Assembly: GCA_945889715.1 (NCBI GenBank)
Contig: CAMDCI010000004.1
Span: 1-40,874, forward strand
DNA from: Bifidobacterium breve
Lineage (GTDB): Bacteria > Actinomycetota > Acidimicrobiia > Acidimicrobiales > Ilumatobacteraceae
DNA length: 40,874 bases
Reading direction: 5' to 3'
Shown here: piece after piece, positions 10,224 to 40,843 of the stretch
How positions within the stretch are numbered: position 1 is the stretch's first letter
Layout of the letters: every line of letters starts with the position of its first letter
Position numbers and translations under genes: made by a program
The notes under the pieces: model-generated
The model's database searches: none
Told to the model about the DNA's origin: nothing
Seen by the model: the letters and a program-made list of their open reading frames with translations, nothing else

Positions 10224-10230
10224 GCGCCGT

Positions 10231-23659: not shown

Positions 23660-23680
23660 TTTCTGATACCGTGTCAGAAA
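23660..23680. promoter_or_regulatory. Palindromic operator, site 1 of the island regulon
   Basis: 21 bases, core TCTGATACCGTGTCAGA at 23662-23678, a 10+1+10 palindrome with one mismatched pair. It lies between the divergent SDR gene (start 23613) and the small ORF/amidohydrolase unit (starts 23721 and 23888). The same core, with the same spacing, recurs at 28135 and twice at 38086-38123. Size and symmetry are typical for TetR-family regulators. Confidence 0.75.
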
Positions 23681-23720
23681 CTAGTCGGAATTGAGCAAAG
23701 ACCGATAACCGTTGGGGGCG

Positions 23721-23891: not shown

Positions 23892-25117
23892 GCAACCACG
23901 AAACAGACACCTATGTCATTGGGCCGACCAACCAAGACATGTTGCTACCTGATCCCGAGATATCCCCGATCTACTACACCTTGATTTCTGTAGACGACCA
24001 CCTCGTTGAACCACCCGACATGTTCGATGGACGTTTGCCAAAATCTCTACAATCGCAAGCACCGCGACTCGTCGTCAATGAACGCGGCCATCAAGTGTGG
24101 TCCTTTGATAATCAGATCTTTAGTCAGGTTGGAATGAACGCAGTCGTCGGACGTAAGCCTGAACTTCGTTCACTTGAACCAGCACGCTTTGAAGATATGC
24201 GACGTGGGTGTTGGGATATTGACGCCCGCATCAAAGATATGGACCTCATCGGGTGTTGGGCTTCGCTCAACTTCCCATCCCAAGTTGCAGGTTTTGCTGG
24301 TCGTATTTTTAGTGCGTGCAAAGACCCCGAGGTTGGCCACGCAACAATGCGCGCCTGGAACGATTGGCTCTACGAAGAGTGGTGGCAGAAATACCCCGAT
24401 CGAATCATCCCGTGCGGCATTACTTGGCTTGCTCCGGGACCCGATGGCACAGCCAAACTTGGGGCCGATGAGATTCGACGCAATGCCGAACGCGGATTCG
24501 TTTCGGTGACATTGCCTGAACGACCACATAATGTTGGTTTTCCCAGTTTGTTTAGCGGTTGGTGGGATCCGATCATTGAAGCCTGCGTCGAAACTGACAC
24601 TGTGATCTCGTTGCATGTTGGCTCGTCAGGAATGCACGCAATGCCCGAAGGAGCACCTTCACTTCAACTCGGCGCCACTTTGTTTGGCCAACTCTCTCTC
24701 ACTGCATGCGCCGAATGGTTGTGGAGCGGATACGCAGATAAATACCCCACGCTGAAGATTGCGATGAGCGAGGGTGGCATTGGTTGGGTCCCGATGTTGC
24801 TTGATCGTCTTGAAAATGTCGTTGATCGCAGCGGCTATGGAGCCGGTTGGGATATTCGTCCTGCCGATTTATTGCGCCGCAACTTTTGGTTCTGCACCAT
24901 CGACGACCCATCAACAATCGATCTCCATGATGTCATTGGCGACGATCACATCATGGTTGAAATCGATTACCCCCATGGCGACAGCACCTGGCCGAACAGT
25001 CAATCCATTTTGCGAGATGCTTGGGGCCACTTGTCTCCACAACTCCTGCGTAAGTTTTGCTGCGAAAATGCCGCTGCGCTCTACCGTCATCCCCTGCCAG
25101 CACGAATCGTTCCATGA
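23888..25117 (+). CDS. Amidohydrolase-2 family metal-dependent hydrolase
   Basis: 409 residues, TIM-barrel family of the ACMSD/5-carboxyvanillate decarboxylase type, acting as hydrolases or non-oxidative decarboxylases. Metal and active-site residues visible: Asp36 and His38 in S-V-D-D-H-L-V-E-P-P, His243 in S-L-H-V-G-S-S-G, Glu295 in S-E-G-G-I-G-W-V-P, and Asp360 in E-I-D-Y-P-H-G-D-S-T-W-P. The W-P-N-S segment and this size are typical of actinobacterial members near steroid and aromatic degradation genes, whose substrates are mostly unknown. Coupled by ATGA to the small ORF before it and to the acyl-CoA synthetase after it. Both lie downstream of operator site 1. Confidence 0.92.
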   Translation: MSNHETDTYVIGPTNQDMLLPDPEISPIYYTLISVDDHLVEPPDMFDGRLPKSLQSQAPRLVVNERGHQVWSFDNQIFSQVGMNAVVGRKPELRSLEPARFEDMRRGCWDIDARIKDMDLIGCWASLNFPSQVAGFAGRIFSACKDPEVGHATMRAWNDWLYEEWWQKYPDRIIPCGITWLAPGPDGTAKLGADEIRRNAERGFVSVTLPERPHNVGFPSLFSGWWDPIIEACVETDTVISLHVGSSGMHAMPEGAPSLQLGATLFGQLSLTACAEWLWSGYADKYPTLKIAMSEGGIGWVPMLLDRLENVVDRSGYGAGWDIRPADLLRRNFWFCTIDDPSTIDLHDVIGDDHIMVEIDYPHGDSTWPNSQSILRDAWGHLSPQLLRKFCCENAAALYRHPLPARIVP

Positions 25118-26775
25118 CCACTGTTGCCTCTCTGCTCCGAGCCAGAAAAGGCGACCAAAACGCCGGCTACATCTTTGAAGGACACACCTACACCTGGGAT
25201 CAAGTTGTTTCTGAGTCGGCAATTCGTGCCTCAATTTTGGCCGAACTACTTTCTGATGACCGCCCGCCTCATGTCGGAATCCTTCTTGAGAACACCCCGG
25301 ACTATCTCTTTTGGATCGGCGGCGCAGCACTTGTTGGTGCATGCATCGTTGGCATCAACCCAACTCGGCGCGGAAGTGAATTAGAACGCGATATTCAGCA
25401 CACCGATTGCCAAATCATCGTGAGTGATCAAAATGGCATCAAACTTATTGATGGTTTACAAATAGGAGTCGATGCGAACAAAGTTATTGACGTTGATTCC
25501 GTTCAACATCACAATCAACTTCGACAACATCGTGATGCGGCACTCCCCGATCACGAACCCGACGAAAATAGCATTCTGTTCTTACTCTTCACATCTGGCT
25601 CAACAAGCGCACCCAAGGCTGTCGTTTGCACCAACCAACGGATGGCAACCGCCAGCGTGCGCGCTGGGCAAATTTACGGCGTCACCGCCGACGAAATTTG
25701 CTATTGCCCGATGCCACTATTCCATGGCAACGCGTTGATGGCCTGTTGGGGGCCCGCCCTTGCCGTTGGAGCAACTCTGGTTCTTCGTCGCAAGTTTTCT
25801 GCAAGCAATTTCATGCCCGATATTCGGGCACATCAATGCACCTATTTCACCTACGTGGGTCGCACGATCGCCTACATCCTTGGCCAACCCGTTTCGAGTG
25901 AGGATCAAAACAACACGTTGCGTCTCGGGTTTGGCACAGAAGCCAGCGCTCTTGATCGCGAACGTTTCCTCGAACGATTCGGTTGCGACCTGGTCGAAGG
26001 TTATGGATCAAGCGAAAGTGTCGTCGCAATCATTCGCACTCCCGACACACCGACTCACGCACTTGGCAAAGAACGAGCCGATATGGCTGGTCAAGTGTGC
26101 ATCGTTAATCCCGATACCAATGTTGAGTGCCCGAGAGTTCAATTTGACGAATTTGGGGCAATCACTAATCCAGAATGCATCGGTGAAATCGTCAGTTTGA
26201 GCGGTGGAACTTCGTTTGAGGGTTACTACAACAATCGAGAAGCGTCAACCGAACGCGTTCGTAACGGCTGGTATTGGACGGGAGATCTTGGTTATCGCGA
26301 TGACGCCGGGTTTTTCTATTTTGGTGGACGAAGCGCCGATTGGTTGCGCGTCGATAGTGAGAACTTTGCGGCCGGACCGGTTGAAAACATCGTTTCACGA
26401 TTTCCCGGAGTCATCATGGCTGCGGTCTACCCCGTTCCCGACCCAACAACTGGCGACATGGTGATGGTGGCTATTGAGATGAACGAAGCAAACCAGTTCT
26501 CACCGCACGAATTTGATGAGTTCTTATCTCAGCAGCGTGATCTTGGCACCAAATGGTCACCACAAATTGTTCGGGTGATCGAAGCGATGCCACTCACCGC
26601 CAACAACAAAGTGCATAAGCCACCGCTACGTGCGAGCAAATGGCTCACGTCAGATTCGCACTATTGGCGATCAGAGCGCAACCAACCCCTACAACTCATG
26701 ACCGACTCCGACAAGAATGATCTTGAACAACGCTTTGCATCAAATGGCCGAAGCCATATTTTGTCGGCGCTCTAA
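25114..26775 (+). CDS. Acyl-CoA synthetase (AMP-forming), copy 1
   Basis: 553 residues from ATG 25114 (ATGA overlap). Activates a carboxylic acid to its acyl-CoA through an acyl-adenylate. Phosphate loop T-S-G-S-T-S-A-P-K (160-168), the A5-like G-Y-G-S-S-E-S (297-302), Y-W-T-G-D-L-G-Y (387-394), hinge G-R-S-A-D-W-L-R-V-D-S-E-N-F (405-418) and the C-terminal catalytic lysine Lys499 in N-N-K-V-H-K. The N-P-T-R-R-G segment (82-87) is shared with FadD17-type ligases of steroid side chains (family recollection, not a search). It is paralogous to the ligase at 29167-30843. The substrate is probably a bulky acid, but this is inference. Confidence 0.93.
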   Translation: MTTVASLLRARKGDQNAGYIFEGHTYTWDQVVSESAIRASILAELLSDDRPPHVGILLENTPDYLFWIGGAALVGACIVGINPTRRGSELERDIQHTDCQIIVSDQNGIKLIDGLQIGVDANKVIDVDSVQHHNQLRQHRDAALPDHEPDENSILFLLFTSGSTSAPKAVVCTNQRMATASVRAGQIYGVTADEICYCPMPLFHGNALMACWGPALAVGATLVLRRKFSASNFMPDIRAHQCTYFTYVGRTIAYILGQPVSSEDQNNTLRLGFGTEASALDRERFLERFGCDLVEGYGSSESVVAIIRTPDTPTHALGKERADMAGQVCIVNPDTNVECPRVQFDEFGAITNPECIGEIVSLSGGTSFEGYYNNREASTERVRNGWYWTGDLGYRDDAGFFYFGGRSADWLRVDSENFAAGPVENIVSRFPGVIMAAVYPVPDPTTGDMVMVAIEMNEANQFSPHEFDEFLSQQRDLGTKWSPQIVRVIEAMPLTANNKVHKPPLRASKWLTSDSHYWRSERNQPLQLMTDSDKNDLEQRFASNGRSHILSAL

Positions 26776-26783: not shown

Positions 26784-27320
26784 TCAGTTTTCTGATTTCC
26801 AGATCTGCCAAGACTCAAGGCATTCAGGCAACTCACCTCGGCCCGTTTGATTTGCTGGCCAATTCGCGTCATCGAGTCCTACTGGAGCGTTAGGCATGGT
26901 GTGGCCGTACCACAACAAGTGCTTACGTCGAGCGAACAACCAATGTCCTTCAACACACTTGTATGTATCGTGATATTGAATTTGTTGGATGATCCAGTTT
27001 CCATCGGCATCTTCAATTTCACCACGACATGACACAATTCCAGTCGCGCTGAACTGATCAGCAACATCGATCAAATGATTGTTAACTTGCAGAATGACAC
27101 GACCCAATGCGTGCATCTGACTGTCAAAACTTTCTTTCAAGGCCTGCGTTCCCGAAGATTCTCTCGTCACCTTGATATCTGGAATAAACAGCCCGGCAAG
27201 ATTTTGCGTATCTCGAGCACCATAGAAAATCGCGTACCGGCTTGCTAGTTGACGAATCTCTTCAGATGCAATCAGCCACGCAACGGGGTCAACATGCCGC
27301 AATGCATTCGAGTGTGTCAC
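26784..27320 (-). CDS. NTF2/SnoaL-fold protein (SnoaL_4-like, possible dehydratase or isomerase)
   Basis: 178 residues. Fold seen in E-E-I-R-Q-L-A-S-R-Y-A-I-F-Y-G-A-R-D, the opening helix of the SnoaL-like family, then strands containing V-N-N-H-L-I-D-V and Y-H-D-T-Y-K-C-V-E-G-H-W-L-F-A-R-R-K-H, the usual closing strands. This family includes scytalone-type dehydratases and the bile-acid 7-alpha-dehydratase BaiE; most actinobacterial members are untested. Candidate polar pocket residues are Tyr24, Asp28 and the His in N-N-H and Y-H-D. Its start overlaps the stop of the SDR gene upstream (ATGA), so the two are co-translated and probably act on the same compound. Confidence 0.85.
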   Translation of the reverse strand: MTHSNALRHVDPVAWLIASEEIRQLASRYAIFYGARDTQNLAGLFIPDIKVTRESSGTQALKESFDSQMHALGRVILQVNNHLIDVADQFSATGIVSCRGEIEDADGNWIIQQIQYHDTYKCVEGHWLFARRKHLLWYGHTMPNAPVGLDDANWPANQTGRGELPECLESWQIWKSEN

Positions 27321-28108
27321 GTTCGCGGACCTCCCGGCAGTGGATGGGGATGAGCGGTTGGTTGTAGCAGTGCATCGGTCCCACCATCAACAAACAAAAT
27401 TTGACCAACCACGTACGAAGCTTCTTGCGAACCCAAGAATGCGATCGCACTCGCGATTTCTTCTGGTTGGCCCCAACGGCCTCGAGGTATCGGAATCATG
27501 TCAAGAGAATCCTTCACACCTGGCATATCGAGCAACGGACGCGTCATGCCCGTATCAATCACGCCTGGCGCAACCGCATTGATTCGTACTCCTGATTTCA
27601 TCCATTCGGCAGCATTCATTCGAACCCAGAAGGCAATCGCCAATTTGCCAGCAGGATATGCGACGAAGGCTGCAGGAGAACTAAAACGCGCGACAACCGA
27701 TTCTTCATCTTGCTGCATATAGGCCATGGCGTCATCGACCGACAGGCCAGGAGTCATCGTTGTCGAGTTTGAAGAAATCATCACAACGGCCGAGTTCGTT
27801 CCTTTTTCAAGCGCTGGACGCAGACCATTGACAATGGCCAAGGTTCCAAAGAAATTCACGCGCACAATCAGTTCGTTTGGTACAGGGGTGCTGACACCAG
27901 CGCATGGCACCAGTCCATCCAAGACTCCCCCGCACAACGCGTTCACTTCATCAACAATCCGCTGTCGATCGGCGGGCTTTGCAAGATCGCCGCACACATC
28001 GGCGTCTCGAAGATCGACTCCGATCACTCGATGGCCCTGAGCGACAAGTTTTGCCTGTGTGGCAGCACCAATTCCTGACGCCGTTCCTGTGACACAGATT
28101 GTCCCCAT
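27317..28108 (-). CDS. SDR of the 3-alpha-hydroxysteroid dehydrogenase/carbonyl reductase type
   Basis: 263 residues from ATG 28108 with GAGGGG seven bases upstream; the 20 extra in-frame codons would run over the operator. T-G-T-A-S-G-I-G (7-14), then V-D-L-R-D-A-D-V near 31-38, which closely resembles the V/I-D-I-R-D-A-E-V of Comamonas 3-alpha-HSD/carbonyl reductase. Also present: C-A-G (69-71), serine near 112, Tyr151-P-A-G-Lys155, a long insert between the serine and the tyrosine (113-148), and G-R-W-G-Q-P-E-E-I. NAD preference is suggested by Asp32. The likely reaction is oxidation of a ring hydroxyl. Regulated with the divergent oxidoreductase through the operator at 28135. Confidence 0.92.
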   Translation of the reverse strand: MGTICVTGTASGIGAATQAKLVAQGHRVIGVDLRDADVCGDLAKPADRQRIVDEVNALCGGVLDGLVPCAGVSTPVPNELIVRVNFFGTLAIVNGLRPALEKGTNSAVVMISSNSTTMTPGLSVDDAMAYMQQDEESVVARFSSPAAFVAYPAGKLAIAFWVRMNAAEWMKSGVRINAVAPGVIDTGMTRPLLDMPGVKDSLDMIPIPRGRWGQPEEIASAIAFLGSQEASYVVGQILFVDGGTDALLQPTAHPHPLPGGPRT

Positions 28109-28134
28109 GACTGCCCCTCGATTCAAATTCCGTT

Positions 28135-28151
28135 TCTGACAGTGTGTCAGA
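28135..28151. promoter_or_regulatory. Palindromic operator, site 2 of the island regulon
   Basis: TCTGACAGTGTGTCAGA: perfect seven-base arms around three bases, the same core spacing as the sites at 23662 and 38086/38107. It sits in the 79-base gap between the divergent SDR (start 28108) and oxidoreductase (start 28188) genes, so a bound repressor could shut both promoters. Confidence 0.75.
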
Positions 28152-28187
28152 TCGCAGGAGTACTTCACGGATCGCTACGGTTGAGTC

Positions 28188-29162
28188 ATGCGTTCCATCG
28201 TTTGCAATCAGTTTGCCCCCCTGTCCGAATTGCGGCTTGAGGAAAAGCCTGCGCCCGAACTCTTCCCAGGTTCTGTTCGTATTGCCGTCACAGCATGTGG
28301 CGTTAATTTCGTTGATGCCCTATTTGTTCAAGGCAAATACCAAATCAAACCGCCAACCCCATTCGTTCCAGGAATGGAAGTCGTCGGCCGCATTACCGAA
28401 GTCGCCCCAGACGTCACTGATGTGCCGCTCGGTTCGCGAGTATTCGCCAATGTTGGCCTCGGAGGCTTTAGTTCTGAGGCGGTCGTGTCGGCCAAGCGAA
28501 TCATGAAACTGCCCGACACTCTGTCTGATGGTCAGGCAGCAACGTTCATGCAAAGTTATCTCACCGCCTGGTTCGCACTTGTTGAACGCGCTCATGTCGA
28601 ACGCGACAAGTGCCTCTTGGTTTTAGGTGCCGGAAGCGGAGTCGGCCTTGGCGCAGTTGATGTCGGCCGGGCACTCGGGTTGCGTGTCATCGCTGCCGCT
28701 TCAACTGAAGAAAAACGCAATCTTGCGCTCGAACGCGGTGCATTCGCCGTGATTGATTCGACTCTTTCAGCGGACGAAGTCAAGGAAGAGGCCAAGCGTC
28801 TCTCTGGTGGTGGAATTGACTACCTATACGACCCCGTCGGTGGCGATCTTGGCGAAACTTGTTTACGCGCGCTCACCGATGACGGTCAATATCTGGTGAT
28901 TGGCTTTGTGGCCGGTATCCCGAAGCTTCCGGCCAATCAGGTGTTGTTACGCAATCGCCGAGTTACGGGCGTTGATTGGGGCGGATGGGCCGGCAAGAAC
29001 CCCGGGCTCAATGACCGTATGTTGACTGAAGTCATGGCTTTGATTGCGGCTGGAGAACTTCGACCTGTCGAACCCCAGACATATCCGTTAGAACAGGCAG
29101 CACAAGCCCTACAAGATCTCGAAGACCGCAAGGTCGCCGGCAAAATAGCGTTGATCCCCTAA
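28188..29162 (+). CDS. Zinc-independent medium-chain oxidoreductase (quinone/enoyl reductase type)
   Basis: 324 residues. MDR superfamily, NADPH:quinone oxidoreductase branch. Catalytic-domain start with G-V-N-F-V-D-A-L (38-45), F-V-P-G-M-E-V-V-G (59-67), and nucleotide loop G-A-G-S-G-V-G (147-153), followed by G-A-V-D-V-G-R-A. The Cys/His zinc ligands of alcohol dehydrogenases are absent. Members reduce quinones, 2-alkenals or enoyl-CoA double bonds with NADPH; it may handle a double bond in the island's pathway. It sits 36 bases from operator site 2 and converges on the ligase gene with a four-base gap. Confidence 0.92.
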   Translation: MRSIVCNQFAPLSELRLEEKPAPELFPGSVRIAVTACGVNFVDALFVQGKYQIKPPTPFVPGMEVVGRITEVAPDVTDVPLGSRVFANVGLGGFSSEAVVSAKRIMKLPDTLSDGQAATFMQSYLTAWFALVERAHVERDKCLLVLGAGSGVGLGAVDVGRALGLRVIAAASTEEKRNLALERGAFAVIDSTLSADEVKEEAKRLSGGGIDYLYDPVGGDLGETCLRALTDDGQYLVIGFVAGIPKLPANQVLLRNRRVTGVDWGGWAGKNPGLNDRMLTEVMALIAAGELRPVEPQTYPLEQAAQALQDLEDRKVAGKIALIP

Positions 29163-29166: not shown

Positions 29167-30843
29167 TCAATCCAACAATGCTCCACGATTGTTGGCAGCA
29201 AACTTTTCACGGAGCTCATTTGCTTCAACCCGAGTGAATTGTGAAAAGGCAATCTCTTTCGCTGGACGCCACCACAACTGAGCATCGTCAAGAATCTCAA
29301 CATCGTGCCATCGTTTTAAAACCAATTCGCGCTTGATCACTTTGTTTGACGGGGTCATCGGGAACTCTTCAACAATCTGCACAAAGGTTGGCACCCACTT
29401 CGGACCGAGATCGGTTTGTGCTCGCAAGAACTCTGCAAACTCGTCTGAGTTAATTGTTGTCCCTGGTTGTATCTGTAGCGCCGCCATAACGCGATCACCC
29501 ATGTCGAAATCTGGAATGCCATACACAGCAGCAAGAATGACATCGGGATGGCGCATCAAAATACGTTCAATAGGAGCGCCTGCAAAGTTCTCGCCATCGA
29601 CGCGCATCCAATCGGCACTTCGTCCCGCAAAATAGAAAAAACCATCGGCGTCGCGATACGCCAGATCTCCGGTCCAGTAAGCCCCATCACGAATACGTTC
29701 ACTATTTGCTTCCGGATTATTCCAGTAACCCTCAAACGTTCCGCCGCCACCATTGACAATTTCACCAGTGGCCTCTTCTGAATTCATGAGCCGACCATCA
29801 TTGTCAAAGATTGCGCGTGGACACTCTTGATTAGTCGCCGGATCGCGCACTGTGATTGTTGCTTGCGCTGCCACGCCAAGAGATCCGGTGGGCATGTTAG
29901 GGACACGCACTATGGATGCACCAGTCTCTGTTTGGCCGTAGCCGTCGGTGAGCTTGCAATCAAATCGCTCAGCAAACCTCAACAGATCAATTTCGGAACC
30001 CTCGTTACCAAAACCACGACGCAAGGGATTGTCGCGATCATCGTCCTGTTCGGGAGTTGCCAAAATATAGGTCAATGGCTTGCCCACATAATTGAAATAA
30101 GTAGCACCAAATTGACGGACATCAGACAAGAACTCACTCGCCGAGAATTTACGGCGCAAAGCAATCGTTGACCCATAAACCAAACTTGGAGCCCATGCGG
30201 TGAATAACGCATTTGAATGGAACAGCGGCATGCAGATATACGTCGTATCTTCTGGCGTGAGTGCAATGATCATGTTCATTGACTGAGCTACAAAATTAAG
30301 TCGCTGGTGACTGGTGATAACTGCCTTCGGTGCGCCACTCGTACCCGAAGTGAAAAGTAACAAAAAAGTGTCAGTCGGATTTACCGGACATTCTTGGGCT
30401 GTGGGCAATGACGCGCCGTCATAAGCCGCAATTGCTTGCGCGTAATTGTCGGACTCCACAACCATGACACCACCCTCGGTGACACCAAGGCCGAGCCCAT
30501 CAAGCAAATTGACTTGACTCGTTTCGGTCACGACAATTTGACACGACGTATGGGTGATATCGCGGGCAAGCTCGGCACCTCGGCGAGTTGGGTTGATACC
30601 AACGATCACCGACCCAGTCACTGCAGCAACCCCCAACCACATTGTGAACTCTGGAGTGTTCTCCAGCAATACCCCAATATGAGGGGACGTACCTTCTGGG
30701 CGGCTTCGCAAAATATTGAGCCACATCGCTGCACGCGACGCGACCCCTGAACACCAATCTCGATAGGTCAATGATTCATTATCAAAGCGGATTGCGATGT
30801 TGTCATCTGTACTTCGAGCACGGACGTGATCAGCAAACGTCAT
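29167..30843 (-). CDS. Acyl-CoA synthetase (AMP-forming), copy 2
   Basis: 558 residues from ATG 30843, ten bases after the stop of the flavin reductase; an in-frame ATG at 30894 would overlap that gene by 41 bases and is less likely. Same layout as the copy at 25114: N-P-T-R-R-G, phosphate loop T-S-G-T-S-G-A-P-K, G-Y-G-Q-T-E-T, Y-W-T-G-D-L-A-Y, G-R-S-A-D-W-M-R-V-D-G-E-N-F, and catalytic lysine in S-N-K-V-I-K-R-E-L. The two copies are clearly related but far from identical, so they probably activate different intermediates or substrates. Last gene of the leftward transporter–reductase–ligase unit controlled from 38.1 kb. Confidence 0.93.
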   Translation of the reverse strand: MTFADHVRARSTDDNIAIRFDNESLTYRDWCSGVASRAAMWLNILRSRPEGTSPHIGVLLENTPEFTMWLGVAAVTGSVIVGINPTRRGAELARDITHTSCQIVVTETSQVNLLDGLGLGVTEGGVMVVESDNYAQAIAAYDGASLPTAQECPVNPTDTFLLLFTSGTSGAPKAVITSHQRLNFVAQSMNMIIALTPEDTTYICMPLFHSNALFTAWAPSLVYGSTIALRRKFSASEFLSDVRQFGATYFNYVGKPLTYILATPEQDDDRDNPLRRGFGNEGSEIDLLRFAERFDCKLTDGYGQTETGASIVRVPNMPTGSLGVAAQATITVRDPATNQECPRAIFDNDGRLMNSEEATGEIVNGGGGTFEGYWNNPEANSERIRDGAYWTGDLAYRDADGFFYFAGRSADWMRVDGENFAGAPIERILMRHPDVILAAVYGIPDFDMGDRVMAALQIQPGTTINSDEFAEFLRAQTDLGPKWVPTFVQIVEEFPMTPSNKVIKRELVLKRWHDVEILDDAQLWWRPAKEIAFSQFTRVEANELREKFAANNRGALLD

Positions 30844-30853
30844 CACTGCATTG

Positions 30854-32974
30854 TCAGAGCTCACGAGCAACTCGATTCGCTGTATGTATTGCACCTTCGA
30901 TGTAACCGATATTCAAGGCGTCTCCTACTACTTGAACTCGTATCCCAAGATCCCTCAGCAACTCTGCCAACTGCACGTCTGGTTCAACTTGAGATGCAAC
31001 AACGACCGAGTCACCACGAACTTCAAATTCGTCTTCACCGACCCGGTATCGAACTGAAACCTTGTCGATTGAAACAACCGTGGCATCACGAACTAGCACA
31101 ACCCCGTGCTTCGTTGCTTTGATTACTGCCGTCCAACGACGAGGCATCGCCATAGGGAGCCCCAAATGCGGACCTTCTTCTAATACGGTGACCTTCCGAC
31201 CGCGTTCGGCGAGAAACTCTGCGAGTTCAAGCCCAACCAAACCCCCACCTACTACCACGACTCGCCTACCAACTGGCATCCAAGTCTTTGAGAGCGTTCG
31301 AATACGATCGGCCGAGTTCAACAGTCCGAGCGATCTGCCAGTGGCCACTGCAAATTTGCCGAACGAATTCAGTGACCGCTGATCGGCACCTGCCTCACCA
31401 GTGATGACGCCCCGCAAAGCATCACCTGTCAGCACATGTGGCAGGTTGGCCCCCGGCACGTCTGGCAATCCGCGGCGAGCCCCGGTCGCCACAACAATTT
31501 CATCAGCATTCAATGCAGCAACGACTTCGCGAGTCGCTTCAGTTGATAACAAAACATCAACATTAAGTCGTTGAATTTCGTGAGTGAGCCAATCAACTAA
31601 CAATTGATTAGCCGGAGTCGTCAACTGCGAGAACCACATGGTTCCTCCGAGTCGCGAGCCCTTCTCAATCAGGGTGACTTTGGCCCCGCGAACCGCCGCC
31701 ACTCGCGCCGCCTCCATACCTCCTGGTCCACCACCGATCACGACAACATGTTTCGCCGTCGGCATTGGAGCAAGAACCGCAACGCTTTCATTGCACAACG
31801 CTGGGTTGACTGCACACTTCGGATTACCGTCAAAGAAGTTTTGTTCAACGCATACATAACAGTTGATGCATGGGCGAACTGAAGCACGTTGACCTTCGCG
31901 AATTTTGTTCACCAGTTCGGCGTCGGCCAACAATTGGCGACCCATTGAAACAAAATCGCATTCACCGAGCGCCAACATCTCGTCGGCAATTTCGGGAAGC
32001 ATTCGACCAACGGCGATCACCGGAATGGTCACATGCTGCTTGACGATTTTGGTGTATTCACGGTATTGAGCAACTTCAGATGGCAGAGGTCCTTGTGTGA
32101 AATCGGCGAACGGATTGTGCGCATTCGCCGACACATGAATTGCATCCGCACCAGCTTCTTCAATCAATGCCGAAGCTCGCGCCGTCTCATCGGGAGTGAG
32201 ACCATCTTCAAGTCCAAATTCAAAACCATTCACTCGCACGAGCACCGGGTAATCGTCACCAACAACCCGCTTGATCGCCCTCACTACTTCGCAGGTGAGG
32301 CGAGCTCGATTTTCTAGGGAGCCTCCCCAACGATCGTCCCGCTTGTTGTAGCCGCGTGAAAGGAATGTCGAAAGCAAATACCCGTGCGCCGCATGAATTT
32401 CGATTGCATCGACACCTGCTTGTTTCACTCGTCGAGCAGCTTGCGCGAACTGATCAATCACCCATGCCAAATCATCCTCATCGGCGATCTTGTACGTCGC
32501 CTTCTTTCCCTGCGTCGCTATCGCCAATCCCATTAATTCTGACATCGGATTGTCGCGGAGCGCCGACAAATCTGGCTTGCTGTCCAACAACGACGGGACC
32601 AACTGCGGTCGACCATCGGCAGTATCAACACCTGCTGTCTTGCCGTGATGACATAACTGCATGCACAGTTTTCCGCCAACAGCGTGAATTGAGTCGGCTA
32701 GTCGGCGAATTCCCGGAATGAACTTGTCATCTGAGAAAGCAGGTTGATGCCGACTCGTTGCGCCAATGGGCCACGCAACAGCACCAGTGCCGGTAATCAC
32801 TAATGCCGTACCGCCTGCAGCGCGCGCGGTGTAATGGGCGATTTCGCCGTCACTAATTTCGCCTTCAACGCACAGGTTCATATCCATCGCTGGCAGAAAA
32901 ACACGATTACTCAATTCAAGTCCAGCGATTCGGCCTGGAGCGAGAAGTGCGTTGAAATGCGGTTCGGTCATCAC
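30854..32974 (-). CDS. NADH:flavin oxidoreductase with Fe-S cluster (2,4-dienoyl-CoA reductase / BaiCD-BaiH type)
   Basis: 706 residues. N-terminal old-yellow-enzyme barrel with FMN (about 1-365): catalytic I-H-A-A-H-G-Y-L (193-200) and R-W-G-G-S-L-E-N-R (215-223). Then the 4Fe-4S cysteines C369, C372, C375 and C387. A nucleotide-binding half carries FAD loop G-G-G-P-G-G (414-419) and a second G-G-G-L-V-G for NAD(P)H. The third cysteine is spaced C-x2-C-x2-C, one residue shorter than my recollection of E. coli FadH (C-x2-C-x3-C). Known relatives reduce dienoyl-CoA or, in BaiCD/BaiH, insert or remove steroid ring double bonds. It lies between the transporter and the ligase, separated from the transporter by 18 bases. 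Confidence 0.93.
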   Translation of the reverse strand: MMTEPHFNALLAPGRIAGLELSNRVFLPAMDMNLCVEGEISDGEIAHYTARAAGGTALVITGTGAVAWPIGATSRHQPAFSDDKFIPGIRRLADSIHAVGGKLCMQLCHHGKTAGVDTADGRPQLVPSLLDSKPDLSALRDNPMSELMGLAIATQGKKATYKIADEDDLAWVIDQFAQAARRVKQAGVDAIEIHAAHGYLLSTFLSRGYNKRDDRWGGSLENRARLTCEVVRAIKRVVGDDYPVLVRVNGFEFGLEDGLTPDETARASALIEEAGADAIHVSANAHNPFADFTQGPLPSEVAQYREYTKIVKQHVTIPVIAVGRMLPEIADEMLALGECDFVSMGRQLLADAELVNKIREGQRASVRPCINCYVCVEQNFFDGNPKCAVNPALCNESVAVLAPMPTAKHVVVIGGGPGGMEAARVAAVRGAKVTLIEKGSRLGGTMWFSQLTTPANQLLVDWLTHEIQRLNVDVLLSTEATREVVAALNADEIVVATGARRGLPDVPGANLPHVLTGDALRGVITGEAGADQRSLNSFGKFAVATGRSLGLLNSADRIRTLSKTWMPVGRRVVVVGGGLVGLELAEFLAERGRKVTVLEEGPHLGLPMAMPRRWTAVIKATKHGVVLVRDATVVSIDKVSVRYRVGEDEFEVRGDSVVVASQVEPDVQLAELLRDLGIRVQVVGDALNIGYIEGAIHTANRVAREL

Positions 32975-32992: not shown

Positions 32993-35815
32993 TCAGTCTT
33001 TGGTATTGCTGCGCTGGATTGCACGTTCATCGGTTCCTAGATAACTCGCAATCACCGCTGGATTGTTTCGGATTGCAGCCGGAGTGCCTTCTGCGATCAC
33101 ATGACCAGCTTCGAGACAATAAATGCGATCAGAAATAGACATCACCATGGGCATGTCATGCTCAATAATCAAAATTGAAGCTCCGAGTTCTTCTTTAATC
33201 AGGCGAATGAGTGGTCCGAAGGCTTCAGTTTCTCGTTGTGCAACACCAGCAGTTGGTTCATCAAGCAACATCAGCTTCGAATCCAAAGCAATCAAGGAAC
33301 CAAGCTCGACGATGCGTCGAGTTCCGGTTGACAATTCACCCATCAATGAGTCGGCGTAACGACCCAGACCAAGATACGAAATGATTTCGTCAGCTTCGCG
33401 TCGTTTTCTTCCCTCATGTTTTGGCGACGGAGGCAGCGCCAAAATTGATGGAATAAGAATGGAACGTTGACGAGACTCAAGAGCGACCATCAACGTTTCA
33501 CGAACAGTCAGCGAACTAAATAGTCGCGCATTTTGAAATGCCCGACCTTGGCCCAGTCGGGCACGCTTATATGCCGGCATCTTTGAAATGTCTTGACCAA
33601 ACAGTTCGATGATTCCCGACGAAGGCACAAAACCCGATACCGCATTGAGGATCGTTGTTTTACCTGCACCGTTTGTTCCGATGAGACCGACTACTTCACC
33701 GCTTCGAACTTCCAGCGAGACGTCATTAATGATCGTGCGTCCACCCAATGTGACATAGAGACCCTTTGTCACCAACGGTGACTCTGTTTCTTTTACTTGC
33801 TTACCAGTGCCGAGCGAGGCGACTGCCACGCCATCTTTACGAACTGGAGGTGTCCAATTTGAACGACGCGCAATCCAGTTCAACAAATTGTCTCGCGCGG
33901 CGTGAACGATTGAAATCAGTCCACTCGGGAAATACAGAAGAACAATCAACATTCCGAATCCACTAGCAAAAAGTTCAACTTGTTTCGTGCCGTCAAAGAA
34001 AAGCGGAACGGCAATGATCAAAAGGGTTCCCAAAACGGCTCCGGTGATGGAACCGATACCCCCGACCACAGCTACCGAAACAATGCGTAACGATTCATCA
34101 AAGTCAAAAAGCAATCCATCAACCTTGAATTGAGCATTGCGCGCGACCAGAGGCAACAAGCCGCCTGCCAAAGCCGCAAGTCCACCCGATACCGCAAAGG
34201 CCAAAAGTTTGGCCCGGTTCGGGGCGACCGTGTAGGCCGAAGACGCTGTCTCGTTGTCTCGCGTTGCGATGATTGATCGCCCGATTCCGGTGCGACGAAT
34301 TCTCCAAACCAACAAACATGACACGAGCGCCATCAGCAAAACGAAGTAGTACACCCCGTCAAAGTTTTTACCCTTGACGGTCCAGAAAATTAAGCGGAAA
34401 CCTTCATTTCGATCAACGTTGAGCTGCGCACTTCCACCGCCACCAGGAGCGAACTTCTCACCAACGATGAACCATGAACGAATCGCCAAGCCGAATCCCA
34501 AGGTGACTACAGCGAGGTACAAACCCTTCACGCGCAATGCCGGAATTCCGACAATGACAGCGGCAATGACACCCCACGTTACGCCAATCGGTAGTGCCAC
34601 CAAATATGGCAGGTCATTGGCGTAATGGATCGTGAGATACGAGCCAAGGGCGACGAACCCGAATTGGCCCAACGAAAGTTGTCCACCCCAACCAGTCACC
34701 ACCGTGACCGAGAGGGCAATGATCAGATACACCGGGACCGAAGAAAACTTCAGCATGTCGCTGGCCTTATCGACTTGGCTAGGAAGTACCAGTGCAAGCG
34801 CAGCGATCAGACCGAATCCCGCAAATGTCAAACCTCGATACAACGGATGCTTCGTCAATTCAACACGAGCGGCACGAACTTTAGAAGAGAGTTGCCAAGC
34901 CTCGTCTTTCATCGACGCCGAACGTCCGACCGTGAACAGCACGACGATGATGACGACAAATAGTACGGCGATATTTGAACCTGTCGGCAAGTCACCGCTT
35001 AATGACCATGTAATCAAGAATCGATCAACAACGCCAGCCAAGAGTCCGCCGACAAGTGTCCATGTAAACGATTTCATTCGGCCCACCATCGCCGCGACAA
35101 GCGAGAGAAGAAGCATCTTGGGACCCAAAGCATTTTGCACCGAAGCAATCGATCCACTTTGTAGCGGGGCAATTAATAGTGCGCTCAATGCTGCGAGCAA
35201 TCCGGCCAATGCCCACACCTTTGTTGAGACACTGCGAACTCCGATTCCGGCAAGACGAGCTGCCGGGAAATTATCCGCAGTCGCGCGAACATTCATACCG
35301 AATGCGCTGCGATGGAATAACCAACCCAAAAAGAGCATCAGTACTGGCACAAAAAGCAGCACAGTGAGCTGTGGGCCCGTGACATTGATGCCGGCAACTT
35401 TCCAACTACCACTAATCAGCACAGGGAAAGTGACATTGGTTGCTTGTTCATCCGGAATAGGTAGACGTAACTGCAGCAACTGAATCACTTGTGTCAGACC
35501 AAGAGTGGCAACGAAAAGCAAGAGCCGAGGTTGAGTAAACAGGCGTCGAAGCACTAACTCTGCTGCGACACCAAGCAACACTCCACAGATCAAGGCAATG
35601 GGCAACGACAATCCGTAGGCGATGTCATAGCGCACTTGCAAGAGCGCCATGATGTAGCCGCCAAATGCACCGATTTGTCCGTGCGCAAAGTTGATAACTC
35701 CCGTCGCTCGATAAATCAGCAACAATCCAAACGCAACCAATGAATAGACGAGCCCTTGTATGAGCCCATCGAACAAAATGTTGTTGGAGTAGGTCAGAGC
35801 GATGAGTGCACTCAT
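32993..35815 (-). CDS. Fused branched-chain-type ABC transporter: LivH-LivM permeases plus LivG ATPase in one chain
   Basis: 940 residues. About 1-300 is a LivH permease (Y-R-A-T-G-V-I-N-F-A-H-G-Q at 35-47). About 325-645 is a LivM permease (G-W-G-G-Q-L-S-L-G-Q-F-G-F at 375-387, R-D-N-E-T-A-S-S near 519). About 680-930 is a LivG ATPase with Walker A G-T-N-G-A-G-K-T-T (713-721), Gln761, signature L-S-T-G-T-R-R (828-834), Walker B L-M-L-L-D-E-P (848-854) and His886. These are normally three proteins; LivH and LivM alone form the membrane channel. The ATG overlaps the stop of the MFS-LivF gene (ATGA). Family members import amino acids, but relatives carry many other small organic acids. The setting suggests the island's substrate. 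Confidence 0.93.
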   Translation of the reverse strand: MSALIALTYSNNILFDGLIQGLVYSLVAFGLLLIYRATGVINFAHGQIGAFGGYIMALLQVRYDIAYGLSLPIALICGVLLGVAAELVLRRLFTQPRLLLFVATLGLTQVIQLLQLRLPIPDEQATNVTFPVLISGSWKVAGINVTGPQLTVLLFVPVLMLFLGWLFHRSAFGMNVRATADNFPAARLAGIGVRSVSTKVWALAGLLAALSALLIAPLQSGSIASVQNALGPKMLLLSLVAAMVGRMKSFTWTLVGGLLAGVVDRFLITWSLSGDLPTGSNIAVLFVVIIVVLFTVGRSASMKDEAWQLSSKVRAARVELTKHPLYRGLTFAGFGLIAALALVLPSQVDKASDMLKFSSVPVYLIIALSVTVVTGWGGQLSLGQFGFVALGSYLTIHYANDLPYLVALPIGVTWGVIAAVIVGIPALRVKGLYLAVVTLGFGLAIRSWFIVGEKFAPGGGGSAQLNVDRNEGFRLIFWTVKGKNFDGVYYFVLLMALVSCLLVWRIRRTGIGRSIIATRDNETASSAYTVAPNRAKLLAFAVSGGLAALAGGLLPLVARNAQFKVDGLLFDFDESLRIVSVAVVGGIGSITGAVLGTLLIIAVPLFFDGTKQVELFASGFGMLIVLLYFPSGLISIVHAARDNLLNWIARRSNWTPPVRKDGVAVASLGTGKQVKETESPLVTKGLYVTLGGRTIINDVSLEVRSGEVVGLIGTNGAGKTTILNAVSGFVPSSGIIELFGQDISKMPAYKRARLGQGRAFQNARLFSSLTVRETLMVALESRQRSILIPSILALPPSPKHEGRKRREADEIISYLGLGRYADSLMGELSTGTRRIVELGSLIALDSKLMLLDEPTAGVAQRETEAFGPLIRLIKEELGASILIIEHDMPMVMSISDRIYCLEAGHVIAEGTPAAIRNNPAVIASYLGTDERAIQRSNTKD

Positions 35816-38016
35816 GCGCCAGCTCCTGACAAGAAGACGGCTCGCAAAAGATCGTCGCGGTCAAGAAGTTCTTGGGCCGGTCCCTCAAACTTCACCTCGC
35901 CTCGTTCCATAAAGACAGCACGATCGGCAATCGAGAGAGCCACGTTCACCGATTGTTCAACGATGACCATGGTGACTCCTTGCTCTTTGAGCTTCTCCAC
36001 AATCTTCAACAAATCTTGCACGACAACGGGCGCCAGACCGAGCGAAAGTTCGTCGATGCACAACAGCTCGGGATCGAGCATGACTGCCTTGGCTAACGCC
36101 AGCATTTGTTGCTGACCACCCGACAACGATCCAGCTCGCTGGTCTCGTCGCTGCCACAAAATGTCAAATGTTTCGTACACCCGCGCTAATTTTTCTTTGC
36201 GCTTGCCGTGGTCGGCGATCTGACGGCTCCACACCTGAAGGTTTTCTTCAACCGTCATCGAACTAAACACCGCTTCGCCACCAGGAACTAGCACCAATCC
36301 CATCGAGGCTCGGTATTGCGGTTCAACCAAAGTGATCGTGCGACCATTCATGCGCACGACTCCGCGGTCGGGCATCACAAGCCCCGAAATCGCCTTCAAG
36401 ATCGTTGACTTGCCCGCACCGTTAGTTCCGAGCAATGCAAGGACTTCGCCTTTACGAACATCAAAACCTACGTCAAAAAGAACCTGCAAGTTTCCATAGC
36501 TGACATCCACATTGCGTACTTGCAACACCGGAATATTGCCAGGATCATTTTGCAAGCGCCGCAACTCAGATTGTTGCTCTTTCAACTCGCTAATTGTGAG
36601 CGCAATATCGCGTTTCATAAATCGACTGCCATAAATGATTAACAGACTGCCCAACAATGCGGCCGGCGGAACGACCGACGTCAGCGCGGTTCGTTCACCG
36701 TGTGCGTCAGACAATCCACCAGCGAGAAGACCGCCAAAGAAGCCGCCCATCAAGAAGATATACACGCCAACCATGGCGAAAGCTTGCGAACGCATTTGGT
36801 ACGGGACGATGGCAGAAATGGCCGGACCCATTTGCGTGAATGCCGCGCCTTGGAATGCATTGCCAATAGTGACAAAAGCAATCATCACGGCAGCGCTTTG
36901 AAAGCGCAGACCTACCGTGACGAAAATTCCGTAACAAAGAATGCACACGCCCATCATTCGTAAGGCCGATGGTGGATTGCGCCTGAACAACTTTTCACCA
37001 ATACGTCCGGCTAGTGGAATTCCAATGAGTGCGCCAGACCAAGTGATGGCCCCTACCCAGCCACGCTTGAACGCGCTGTAGTCGTAGGTGTTTTTCAAGA
37101 GCAAGTTAAATGCACCAGGCACTGCGATGAGCGCAAACCCGAGAACACCAATGCCGACAACTAAGAAATAGAAAGTGCGTACTTTCTTTAATCGCTGAAA
37201 AGCGGCCGACAACAACACCGGCGGTTCTGCCTCTGCCTCAACAACTTCTGTACCCAAAACTGCTTGTTGTTCTTGACGGCCACGCTTTGGCTCTTTCAAA
37301 GTGAACGACCACAAGATTGTTAAACCTGCTGGGATAAGTAATGCAAAGAAAACGATTCGCCAGTCGCCGGCATCATCGCCGGCAGCAACAACGATTGCCC
37401 CAGCAAACAATGGTCCGAGCACTTGACCGAGTGGTCGACCAAGTGCTTCAATCGCGAAGATTCGCGTCCGAACAGCAAGCGGGTATTGATCGGCGACAAG
37501 AGATGGCCCAATAGGCACCCGGGCCGAAGCACCAAAACCCGAGCCGGCACGTGCCAATCCCATCTGGAACGTGTTGACGACCGACCCAGTGATCGCGACA
37601 AATGCCAGCCATAAGGCTGATGCTGCCGAAATCACCCGAACTCGGCGGCGGCGATCGGCCAGCCAGGCAAACGGCATCGTTGCTAACACCAAAACCACGC
37701 CACCAAAACTTTGTAAACCGAGAAGAACTGTGTCGGACACTCCAAGAGTTGCCTGAATATCTGGTCCAAGGACTTGCATCGCCACCCGGTCGAACTCTTC
37801 AAAAATAGTGAACAGCAGCAAAACCGTGGCCACTCTGAATCCACCAATGCGCAGGCCTTCGCGCAACTTCATCGATTCTTGGGGGGCCGCTACGTCATCG
37901 TCGGCTTCATTGGCCTGGGCGTCGCGATCCCGGCGACTTTGCTCATCGACCACAATCGATGAAGCCAGCGCCGCAGCCGAAGGTCCGGCGACTTGTTTCC
38001 CCTCAAATTCCTGCAT
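35812..38016 (-). CDS. MFS permease fused to LivF-type ABC ATPase
   Basis: 734 residues. Residues 1-55 are polar and acidic. About 58-468 form a 12-helix major facilitator domain with a motif-A-like W-L-A-D-R-R-R-R (118-125) and A-F-Q-G-A-A-F near 387. A coiled linker (475-492) leads to a LivF ATPase: Walker A G-T-N-G-A-G-K-S-T (530-538), signature L-S-G-G-Q-Q-Q (631-637), Walker B L-L-C-I-D-E-L (651-657) and Q-S-V in the switch position. It supplies the LivF partner missing from the 940-residue fusion. Start with AGGGGG five bases upstream; first gene of the leftward unit behind the tandem operators. MFS–ATPase fusions occur in actinobacterial genomes, but I know of no tested member. Confidence 0.93.
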   Translation of the reverse strand: MQEFEGKQVAGPSAAALASSIVVDEQSRRDRDAQANEADDDVAAPQESMKLREGLRIGGFRVATVLLLFTIFEEFDRVAMQVLGPDIQATLGVSDTVLLGLQSFGGVVLVLATMPFAWLADRRRRVRVISAASALWLAFVAITGSVVNTFQMGLARAGSGFGASARVPIGPSLVADQYPLAVRTRIFAIEALGRPLGQVLGPLFAGAIVVAAGDDAGDWRIVFFALLIPAGLTILWSFTLKEPKRGRQEQQAVLGTEVVEAEAEPPVLLSAAFQRLKKVRTFYFLVVGIGVLGFALIAVPGAFNLLLKNTYDYSAFKRGWVGAITWSGALIGIPLAGRIGEKLFRRNPPSALRMMGVCILCYGIFVTVGLRFQSAAVMIAFVTIGNAFQGAAFTQMGPAISAIVPYQMRSQAFAMVGVYIFLMGGFFGGLLAGGLSDAHGERTALTSVVPPAALLGSLLIIYGSRFMKRDIALTISELKEQQSELRRLQNDPGNIPVLQVRNVDVSYGNLQVLFDVGFDVRKGEVLALLGTNGAGKSTILKAISGLVMPDRGVVRMNGRTITLVEPQYRASMGLVLVPGGEAVFSSMTVEENLQVWSRQIADHGKRKEKLARVYETFDILWQRRDQRAGSLSGGQQQMLALAKAVMLDPELLCIDELSLGLAPVVVQDLLKIVEKLKEQGVTMVIVEQSVNVALSIADRAVFMERGEVKFEGPAQELLDRDDLLRAVFLSGAGA

Positions 38017-38104: not shown

Positions 38105-38125
38105 TTTCTGACGGACCGTCAGAAA
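38105..38125. promoter_or_regulatory. Palindromic operator, site 3b (tandem pair)
   Basis: Perfect 10+1+10 palindrome, core TCTGACGGACCGTCAGA at 38107-38123, identical to site 3a. Spacing of two helical turns puts both sites on the same face of the DNA, so two dimers could bind cooperatively. A further half site GTCAGA follows at 38128-38133. Confidence 0.82.
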
Positions 38126-38204
38126 CGGTCAGATTCTCTGCTAAGTTGCCCATGCGGCTGGTCTCGTGGCCAACCGACTTCACAACTTCCGAGGGGGATA
38201 TCAC

Positions 38205-39671
38205 ATGAAGAAATCACGTATTGCGCTGGCGTTCGTCGCCGGCGCATCACTCATCGTTGCCGCTTGTGGCGGCGATGACGGAGGCTCAGTAGCAACTGAG
38301 GCTCCCGCTGCCAGCGAGGCTCCGGCCTCAAGCGAAGCTCCTGTTACTGACGCACCAGCCGAAGAACTCACAGCCTCAGACATCGGCATCACTGCCGACA
38401 CCATCAAGATTGGCGTCGCGGTCTCTGACCTCGAAGCCATTCGAGCCATGGGAATCTCGATTCCCGAGACCTTGACGACCGACCACTTGTTTGATCGTTG
38501 GAACGTCTTCTTCGAAAAGTGGAACGCCGAAGGCGGCATTAACGGACGTATGGTCGAACCAGTTCGCCTCGTCTGGAACCCGCTTGACCCAAGCACGTTC
38601 GATACTTTGGTTGCCGAAGCAACGGTCAACAATGAACTGTTTATGGTCGTGAATGGAACCGGATTGTCCTCGACCGCACGTGGATTACTCCTCGCCGCCG
38701 GCGTACCAATCATGTACGGAGACGTCATGGGCCGGGCAGAACTTGACACCGGTCTCGCGATTTCTCTCTCCGCACCATCTGAAACTGTTGCTGAAGCCGG
38801 AGTCACCGCATGGATGGACTCAACTGATGCAGCACCTGGTTCAGTTGTTGGAGTTCTCTCGAACAATACTTTGGTCGGGGCTGCCGCGGGCAAAGCGGCT
38901 GAAGCTGCGTTGACCGCTGGTGGATTCACTCCGAAGTTGATTGAGATCAACTCAACGCAGGGCGACGCAGCTGCCACCAATGAAGAAGGCGCAGCAGCCG
39001 TTGCGGTCTTCGAAGCTGAAGGCGTTGTGCAGACTTTCGTTTCGACACCGTTCACTGAAACCCAAGGTTTCTGGGGTGCTGCTGCCGCTGCTGGTTTGAA
39101 GTTCTCGTTGCTTGATACTTCATCATCTGGTTGTTCAGCGTTCGGTTTGAGTCGTGCTCCAGCTGCTGCCGTTGGCAGTGACTGCGTCACCGCTTACGAC
39201 CACTCGACTGACGGAACCTCAATTCGCCCCGACACCGAGTTCGAAGCAGAATGCCGTGCGTTCTTTGATGCAAGTTTCTCCGAGTATTACGGTGGACCTT
39301 CCAACCCAGGCGTGCCAGCAGGAAACGTTTATACCGATGCCAATGGCAAGACTTTGAATTCGGACTACACGCCCCAAGAATGTGCGTTGGCCAACATCAT
39401 CAATCTTGGATTGACAGCAGCGGGCGTTAACCCGACCCGTCAGTCATACATCGATGCTGTGTTGAACCTTGGCGAAGTGCCGTTGGCACTTGCTGGTGGC
39501 GGAACTGGCATGTTTGAGCCAGGCAAGCCATTCGCAGCCAATGCATTGCACACAGTGCGAATCACTGCAGCAGCGCTTGACACCGCACCAGATGCGAACG
39601 GTTTGTACAACGGTTGTGCAGCACCGGTCAACTGTGGTGTTGTTGTTGGCGATTGGACACCCATTAGCTGA
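38205..39671 (+). CDS. ABC transporter substrate-binding lipoprotein (branched-chain amino acid type)
   Basis: 488 residues from ATG 38205 with GAGGGGG seven bases upstream; the in-frame ATG at 38166 adds non-signal residues. Signal peptide and lipobox I-V-A-A-C with Cys21, then a low-complexity Ala/Pro/Glu/Ser tether (S-E-A-P-A-S-S-E-A-P) and a type I periplasmic-binding fold beginning I-K-I-G-V-A-V-S-D. N-A-E-G-G-I-N-G-R is the usual Leu/Ile/Val-binding-protein signature. It is the external receptor for the two fusion proteins encoded divergently, controlled by the same operators. Two Cys pairs in the C-terminal half may form disulfides. Ends in a strong terminator. Confidence 0.93.
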   Translation: MKKSRIALAFVAGASLIVAACGGDDGGSVATEAPAASEAPASSEAPVTDAPAEELTASDIGITADTIKIGVAVSDLEAIRAMGISIPETLTTDHLFDRWNVFFEKWNAEGGINGRMVEPVRLVWNPLDPSTFDTLVAEATVNNELFMVVNGTGLSSTARGLLLAAGVPIMYGDVMGRAELDTGLAISLSAPSETVAEAGVTAWMDSTDAAPGSVVGVLSNNTLVGAAAGKAAEAALTAGGFTPKLIEINSTQGDAAATNEEGAAAVAVFEAEGVVQTFVSTPFTETQGFWGAAAAAGLKFSLLDTSSSGCSAFGLSRAPAAAVGSDCVTAYDHSTDGTSIRPDTEFEAECRAFFDASFSEYYGGPSNPGVPAGNVYTDANGKTLNSDYTPQECALANIINLGLTAAGVNPTRQSYIDAVLNLGEVPLALAGGGTGMFEPGKPFAANALHTVRITAAALDTAPDANGLYNGCAAPVNCGVVVGDWTPIS

Positions 39672-39806: not shown

Positions 39807-39855
39807 CCACTTTGGAATATGGTTGCCGCCTAGCGGCAGCCATATTCCAAAGTGG
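39807..39855. repeat. Near-perfect 23-bp inverted repeat
   Basis: Arms 39807-39829 and 39833-39855 pair with a single mismatch (a G-U in RNA) around the loop CTA; the left arm begins CCACTTTGGAATATGG. It directly follows the terminator and ends 55 bases before the AbiEi-like gene. Its outermost eleven bases recur at the right end of the window, which suggests a repeat family and not only a second terminator. Confidence 0.75.
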
Positions 39856-39910
39856 GGAAATTGCTGATTGGTGGTCGCCGAAAACTTGGCCCCATTCCCA
39901 CATTTTGGAC

Positions 39911-40843
39911 ATGGACGACAAACTCTCATTGCTCATAAAAATCGCACAACAACGATCTGGTCTGGTGCTGCTTAATGATCTCAAGCAGTTGAGTTTCAGC
40001 CCGAGTTCAATCAGTCGACTCGTTTCTCGGGGGATCTTGCGCCGGGTTCATCGAGGGACGGTGTATGCGCTCAGCGACGCTCACCTTAACTTCGAAGCAG
40101 AAATTGCAGCGGCTTGCTTTGCGGTTCCAGATTCGTGGGCGTCGGGAGTAAGCGCCGCCCAGTACTGGGGAATCCGTCGAGTCCCCAAGGGAAGGATCGA
40201 GATTTCTGTGAACACGGATTTTCATCCAAATCTCACCGGAGTCCGAATCCGCAGAGTCAACTTGCCCGAGCCAGAAATTGTCACGTCGATCCATGGATGG
40301 AGCGTCAGCTCTCCCCCACAAACACTCTTCGAGATTGCACTTGAAGTTGACGATCGAACTTTGCTTTCGGCATATGAAGATTGCCTCAATCGAGAACTCG
40401 TCACTATTTCAGGGGTTCGAGAATTTGGTAGTCGTGCAGTGAAAATGGGTCGTCATGGATCCGCTCGTTTTCGCAGGGTAATTTTGGGTCGCCCCGATGA
40501 ATTACCGATCGCAATGAGCCACCCCGAACTTGAACTTGTCCGAGCATTGGAAGAACGCGATCCGCGTTGGCAACGACAATTTCCTATTGAAATTCCAGGA
40601 AGCCATACGATCCATGTGGATATCGCCCGTCCCGATATCAAGCTTGGAGTCGAGGTAGATGGCGAATTACACGACACAGTCGTCGCAATACACAGAGACA
40701 AACTTCGAGATATGCAGGCCGCATTACTGGGTTGGCAGATTCTCCGCCCAACAACCGGCGATGTCACCGATCACTTGATGGAAGTGATTTCTATGATCAG
40801 CCGCACAGCAACTCAACGCACCTTGCAATTTAAGGTCGCTTAA
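39911..40843 (+). CDS. AbiEi-like winged-helix protein with DUF559/Vsr-like nuclease domain
   Basis: 310 residues from ATG 39911; the longer frame back to 39812 runs through the inverted repeat and is unlikely to be coding. The N-terminal ~55 residues look like the helix-turn-helix of type IV antitoxin AbiEi proteins (S-I-S-R-L-V-S-R-G-I-L-R-R-V-H-R-G-T-V-Y). The middle part (A-S-G-V-S-A-A-Q-Y-W-G) is also AbiEi-like. The C-terminal ~110 residues resemble the PD-(D/E)xK fold of DUF559: Glu206/Glu208, Asp237 in H-V-D-I-A-R-P-D, and Glu248-Val-Asp250 in G-V-E-V-D-G-E-L-H. Such solitary genes are frequent in actinobacteria with unknown function. There is no AbiEii toxin next to it within the window. 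Confidence 0.8.
   Translation: MDDKLSLLIKIAQQRSGLVLLNDLKQLSFSPSSISRLVSRGILRRVHRGTVYALSDAHLNFEAEIAAACFAVPDSWASGVSAAQYWGIRRVPKGRIEISVNTDFHPNLTGVRIRRVNLPEPEIVTSIHGWSVSSPPQTLFEIALEVDDRTLLSAYEDCLNRELVTISGVREFGSRAVKMGRHGSARFRRVILGRPDELPIAMSHPELELVRALEERDPRWQRQFPIEIPGSHTIHVDIARPDIKLGVEVDGELHDTVVAIHRDKLRDMQAALLGWQILRPTTGDVTDHLMEVISMISRTATQRTLQFKVA

Follow-up and report, generated by a model that had tools for sequence, protein, structure and literature searches.

The window, the whole stretch of 40,874 nucleotides analysed here, carries a gene for a 734-residue protein in which a major facilitator superfamily (MFS) carrier is joined to a LivF-type ABC ATPase. The fusion gene and the features around it are as follows:

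27317..28168, minus strand: short-chain dehydrogenase (SDR), a genus-conserved neighbour (Pfam, genus comparison)
28135..28151: arms of the putative operator again (TCTGACAGTGTGTCAGA), between the SDR and the quinone-oxidoreductase-like gene (sequence)
28188..29162, plus strand: zinc-type quinone oxidoreductase-like gene, a genus-conserved neighbour (Pfam, genus comparison)
29167..30894, minus strand: acyl-CoA ligase, top model CasI steroid-22-oyl-CoA synthetase, below cut-off (602/900 bits; NCBIfam)
30854..32974, minus strand: OYE/BaiCD-like flavin enzyme, the operon's next gene (Pfam, NCBIfam)
32993..35815, minus strand: LivH-LivM-LivG fusion (LivHMG), 940 aa, whose start overlaps the MFS-LivF stop by 4 bp (ORF, Pfam)
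35812..38016, minus strand: MFS-LivF fusion gene, 734 aa (single-frame ORF, Pfam, NCBIfam, homologues, AlphaFold2)
35815..36528, minus strand: LivF-type ATPase domain, residues 497-734 (Pfam, NCBIfam, structure matches)
36049..36066, minus strand: Walker B with catalytic Glu, LLCIDE, residues 651-656 (sequence)
36115..36126, minus strand: ABC signature LSGG, residues 631-634 (sequence)
36406..36429, minus strand: Walker A GTNGAGKS, residues 530-537 (sequence; core invariant across 90 sequences)
36547..36696, minus strand: last MFS helix, residues 441-490 unbroken, running into the ATPase (AlphaFold2 model)
36562..37866, minus strand: MFS domain, residues 51-485, Spinster-like, 12 membrane helices (Pfam, profile, AlphaFold2, fold match)
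37528..37530, minus strand: Ala163, at the position of the Spinster proton-switch Glu129 (HnSpns alignment; PMC9440201)
38086..38102: putative operator palindrome TCTGACGGACCGTCAGA, copy 1 (sequence)
38107..38123: putative operator palindrome TCTGACGGACCGTCAGA, copy 2 (sequence)
38166..39671, plus strand: divergent lipoprotein, presumed substrate-binding protein (homologue Pfam and profile matches)

Pfam places MFS_1 (PF07690) at residues 70-348 of the fusion protein (E 3.7e-32) and ABC_tran (PF00005) at residues 515-656 (E 3.5e-28). An AlphaFold2 model of MFS-LivF, built with 90 sequences (pLDDT 89.1, pTM 0.85), contains twelve membrane helices and a full ATPase; helix 12 is unbroken to residue 490 and the ATPase begins at about residue 498. 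The ATPase scores best against the NCBIfam models UrtE and LivF, in each case below the equivalog cut-off, and its closest solved structure is 1ji0 from T. maritima. Its switch residue is Gln (VEQ, 684-688), with His instead in the LivG half. Pfam, AlphaFold2 and the motifs thus bear out the initial annotation, which had described a complete 12-helix carrier and a LivF ATPase with intact Walker A, signature and Walker B in one chain.

The 4-bp overlap between the MFS-LivF and LivHMG genes is GCGCATGAGTGC. The LivHMG chain has two BPD_transp_2 permease stretches (PF02653, E 1.5e-56), and its LivG part carries a BCA_ABC_TP_C tail (PF12399, above cut-off). By domain content, LivF is the subunit that this neighbour is missing, as had been proposed. 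The presumed binding protein, whose start codon is more likely near 38205, has no Pfam match of its own, although 5 of 8 aligned homologues match Peripla_BP_6, and its profile gives weak matches to Leu/Ile/Val-binding structures. Liv/HAAT-type importers (LivFGHM-JK, UrtABCDE) are built alike, with two BPD_transp_2 permeases, a LivG with BCA_ABC_TP_C and a LivF-type ATPase; their binding proteins are of the Peripla_BP_6-type family, which the homologue matches suggest for the window protein. In contrast to those systems, LivF here bears a 12-helix MFS carrier, LivH, LivM and LivG form one chain, and the ATPase scores fall under the LivF/LivG equivalog cut-offs.

The CoA ligase and OYE neighbours score under the curated cut-offs of the steroid enzymes named for them. 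OYE and quinone-oxidoreductase neighbours were not found beside fused loci outside the genus. The set of OYE, CoA ligase, quinone oxidoreductase and SDR was considered as a general clue to the substrate and rejected, since it is kept within the genus only. More acyl-CoA catabolic genes are found near the transporter at 20019-26775, namely a PhyH-type dioxygenase, an amidohydrolase and a second CasI-like ligase (690/900 bits). The region 14457-22653 encodes a PnrA/BMP-type binding protein, a double ATPase and two permeases, then PhyH, adenosine deaminase and uracil phosphoribosyltransferase, and is likely a nucleoside uptake and salvage operon. Beside the binding-protein gene, 39812-40843 encodes an AbiEi-type N-terminal domain and a DUF559/MTES_1575 nuclease-like C-terminal part.

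Full-length homologues of the fusion are 77-98% identical in genomes of the same genus, and many more occur within the order and in other families. The fusion was counted in 19 of 396 genomes sampled across the phylum, other classes included. Scanning genome contigs turned up 80 fused loci, including those of Candidatus Microthrix and Ilumatobacter. Cultured organisms with the fusion are Yinghuangia seranimata, Parafrankia colletiae and Kribbella pittospori, and an Embleya replicon also carries it. The window comes from a fragmented metagenome assembly (227 contigs), which could raise the suspicion of an assembly or annotation artefact. We give that explanation next to no credence and regard it as refuted, since dozens of independent assemblies, isolates included, share the fusion. 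The assembly error that the initial annotation had itself raised against its reading is excluded by 137 distinct MFS-LivF loci. The join is therefore genuine, as it had claimed, being in one continuous frame and conserved across genomes.

Mapping of co-occurrence over genomes, which had also been suggested, showed LivH and LivM adjacent and on the same strand in 127 of the 137 fused loci. Of the remaining 10, nine are truncated where their contigs end, and L084 has LivH/LivM about 3-5 kb off. Using six-frame profile annotation, the window's arrangement (type A) is MFS-F / H-M-G, with the slash separating chains, and type B is H-M / MFS-F-G; further splits are MFS-F / H-M / G and G / H-M / MFS-F. 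MFS-LivF is thus the constant module while the other importer parts split four ways. Throughout the fused loci surveyed, the MFS is always joined to LivF and never directly to LivH or LivM. Chains of 1750-1870 aa that appeared to be LivHM-MFS-LivF-LivG were rejected: by Pfam and six-frame profiles, the N-terminal part of each is high-GC read-through and LivHM lies in a different frame. The window genome has a second MFS-LivF system, of type B (LivH-LivM / MFS-LivF-LivG), at L064 (G000:C36):8695-13688. A contig titled as a Terriglobia (Acidobacteriota) MAG (L146) has a type A MFS-LivF, which would be either an inter-phylum transfer or a misbinned contig.

Relatives lacking the MFS occur in the same order, either as H-M / F-G or with all four Liv parts in one chain. 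Single chains of the order LivH-LivM-LivF-LivG were seen at L091, L096, L099, L101, L103, L104 and L229:13361-17098 (about 1250 aa in L229). The LivF tree intermixes forms with and without the MFS, and supported branches force at least 4 changes of the MFS-less label. Stand-alone carriers mostly group apart in the carrier tree; four are nested among the fused ones, a placement that points to later separation from the fusion. The initial annotation had named separate genes in relatives as evidence against the fusion. Such relatives do exist, as MFS-less forms and as the four nested stand-alone carriers; they indicate repeated gain or loss of the fusion and do not make it false.

These arrangements bear on whether the join matters at all. 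If the fusion only ensured co-expression, two independent transporters would have been joined by chance and the MFS would have a separate job, such as by-product efflux. Genes that fuse several functions are common in these genomes (LivHMG, LivHMFG), and MFS and Liv genes also occur separately, with one stand-alone carrier of the family in L229 lying 3 kb from an MFS-less LivHMFG chain. However, joins made by chance should differ from case to case, and it is always MFS-LivF through several rearrangements. We therefore judge this explanation improbable.

HnSpns gives the top profile match to the carrier half (144.5 bits), followed by SPNS1 and DgoT. By fold, SPNS1 (Z 43.3, rmsd 2.4 over 411 residues) and SPNS2 (Z 43.1) come before the next family, MCT1 (39.4). 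SPNS2/SPNS1 likewise rank first for the type B carrier; in the predicted type B MFS-LivF-LivG model (974 aa, pTM 0.66), the placement of the ATPase relative to the carrier domain is uncertain. Mapped on HnSpns, the window protein keeps Asp41/Arg42 (D76, R77, TM1), motif A (D121, R125), Arg122 (R156), the TM4 RxxxG (R156, G160) and Asp142 (D176). The equivalents of motif A and Asp142 are almost invariant. In HnSpns, Glu129 in TM4 is the intracellular proton switch (PMC9440201). The window has Ala163 at this position, and among 122 fused carriers only 2 have Glu and 71 have Lys or Arg. Such near-complete loss of Glu129 across the fused carriers casts doubt on the usual proton drive. The residue is also missing from most stand-alone members of the family, so its loss was not caused by fusion. 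The carrier is thus like the Spinster branch (HnSpns, SPNS1, SPNS2) in its top profile and fold matches and in its TM1 Asp-Arg, motif A, TM4 Arg and Asp142, and differs from it in Ala163 and in the fusion to an ABC ATPase. The alignment indicates that the rocker machinery is kept and does not support the usual Spinster proton drive. Because Glu129 is replaced, we call the fused carrier Spinster-like and not a proton-coupled Spns member.

Comparison of the window with its near relatives gives a dN/dS of 0.03-0.04 in the carrier part and of 0.015-0.03 in LivF. At such values the carrier must do something that selection protects. The initial annotation had offered three roles for the fusion, namely coupling, anchoring of LivF to the membrane, and paired import and export, and favoured none of them. 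Anchoring in its purest form, as an assembly scaffold, would mean that the MFS only holds LivF at the membrane and fixes a 1:1 ratio, with no transport. The fusion does fix stoichiometry, and sister systems get the same result with LivF joined to LivG or built into the whole chain. Those LivF-LivG relatives also show that LivF needs no such anchor, and stand-alone carriers exist in the same family. With the MFS under strong purifying selection and motif A, the TM4 Arg and Asp142 conserved, a role as a pure scaffold is quite improbable. The broader idea of a mere anchor is likewise unlikely given the dN/dS, the gate residues kept and the sister LivF proteins without MFS.

The loss of Glu129 also bears on energy coupling. 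The LivF cycle could drive or gate the MFS itself, so that a secondary carrier would become a primary pump, in the way that ArsA acts on ArsB. A continuous helix joins carrier and ATPase in the predicted model, and Glu129 is lost in almost all fused carriers with the gate residues kept, as would suit such an arrangement. Several observations argue against it. LivF is already partnered by LivG, with LivHM adjacent; stand-alone family members are mostly without Glu129 too; the window keeps the TM1 Asp-Arg pair; and the four carriers nested among fused ones are separate genes. We consider ATP coupling of the carrier unlikely. The specific version in which the ATPase cycle is mechanically coupled to the MFS, so that ATP-driven import of a steroid catabolite moves a second solute in step, is rather unlikely.

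Two perfect palindromes (TCTGACGGACCGTCAGA) separate the MFS-LivF operon from the divergent binding-protein gene. Genus mates have them at the same position, as do type A loci from other families (L047/L138, L055, L141). The arms, TCTGAC-N5-GTCAGA, occur at 13 sites in the genome, where 0.12 would be expected and the reversed control has 0. From this pattern we infer that the palindrome is a putative operator through which the operon would be regulated. The palindrome seems to differ from the published KstR2 motif. In L235, from a genome of another family, a stand-alone carrier of the sister clade (9131-10429) lies about 3 kb from a palindrome copy at 13780 and is perhaps the CamM-like carrier of that regulon.

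The other operator copies point to what the transporter may carry. One is near an operon of crotonase (EchA20-like), IpdA, IpdB and IpdC-like genes (L258). Others are near acyl-CoA dehydrogenases, amidohydrolases and a ChsH2-like protein. A FadD3-family ligase above its cut-off stands by a copy, and a steroid 3-ketoacyl-CoA thiolase, also above cut-off, is near one though not necessarily driven by it. IpdA matches 6co6_A at 331 bits and IpdB matches 6co6_B at 259 bits, far over other CoA transferases; 6co6 is the IpdAB structure. EchA20 and IpdC are assigned to superfamily level only. FadD3-, EchA20-, IpdA-, IpdB- and IpdC-like genes of the HIP (KstR2-type) set were all found near the shared operator. 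IpdAB and companion genes open the last two steroid rings (PMC5380842). The KstR2 regulon for HIP catabolism in mycolic-acid actinobacteria has like genes (PMC5380842), and the difference is that here the same operator sequence also stands by a transporter. The regulon points away from branched-chain amino acids as the load. HIP-type genes could also serve other cyclic terpenoid acids.

Within the genus, the type A transporter is confined to genomes having the regulon. At least 5 operator sites occur in 21 genomes, 19 of which have type A; completeness is 53% and 76% for the other two. In the three genomes with at most 1 site, of which one reaches 97% completeness, type A and IpdA are both absent, although type B is present. 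Fisher tests that ignore shared ancestry gave p 0.005 for type A against the regulon, p 0.04 for type A against IpdA and p 1 for type B against the regulon. The steroid link holds for the window clade and for a few further type A loci and excludes type B; limited in this way, it cannot explain the fusion in general. Since type B has no tie to the steroid-type operator within the genus, the substrate of the window genome's type B system is probably different from that of type A.

On balance, we moderately favour a Liv-type importer with a built-in, working Spinster-type carrier at 1:1, which in the window clade would import steroid ring C/D catabolites. MFS-LivF and LivHMG would assemble 1:1 into a complete Liv-type ABC importer with two permeases and two ATPases, to which the divergent binding protein would deliver substrate. 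Each complex would then contain one Spinster-type carrier as an extra membrane subunit, tied to the ATPase via the predicted continuous helix. The ABC half would bring substrate in with ATP. The MFS half is most likely no dead anchor but a working alternating-access carrier, tethered to the importer, for the same or a related amphipathic acid. The load in the window clade is probably a steroid ring C/D (hydroindane, HIP-like) acid or similar. In Rhodococcus jostii RHA1, an MFS carrier, CamM, and an ABC importer, CamABCD, are both reported to take up steroid-ring metabolites (PMC8399759). Those genes are separate and these are fused, and we liken them by role and not by sequence kinship. By this analogy, a transporter that shares its operator with degradation genes may fill the role of the separate CamM and CamABCD.

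Four points go beyond the initial annotation: the kinship with Spinster, the loss of the proton-switch residue, the operator and the link to steroid-catabolic genes. Domain databases probably list the MFS-LivF architecture already. No paper on an MFS-ABC fusion was found in the open-access full-text literature, where absence is weak evidence. In teaching, ABC pumps and MFS carriers are kept apart, each with its own energy source. A fusion conserved in nature makes it possible to test whether the two can be coupled. The fusion-bearing actinobacteria come from soil and water. As of 2016, steroid uptake outside the mycolic-acid bacteria had no identified system (PMC4810484). With its binding protein, switch and catabolic genes, the operon is a concrete candidate for steroid uptake in freshwater and sludge actinobacteria.
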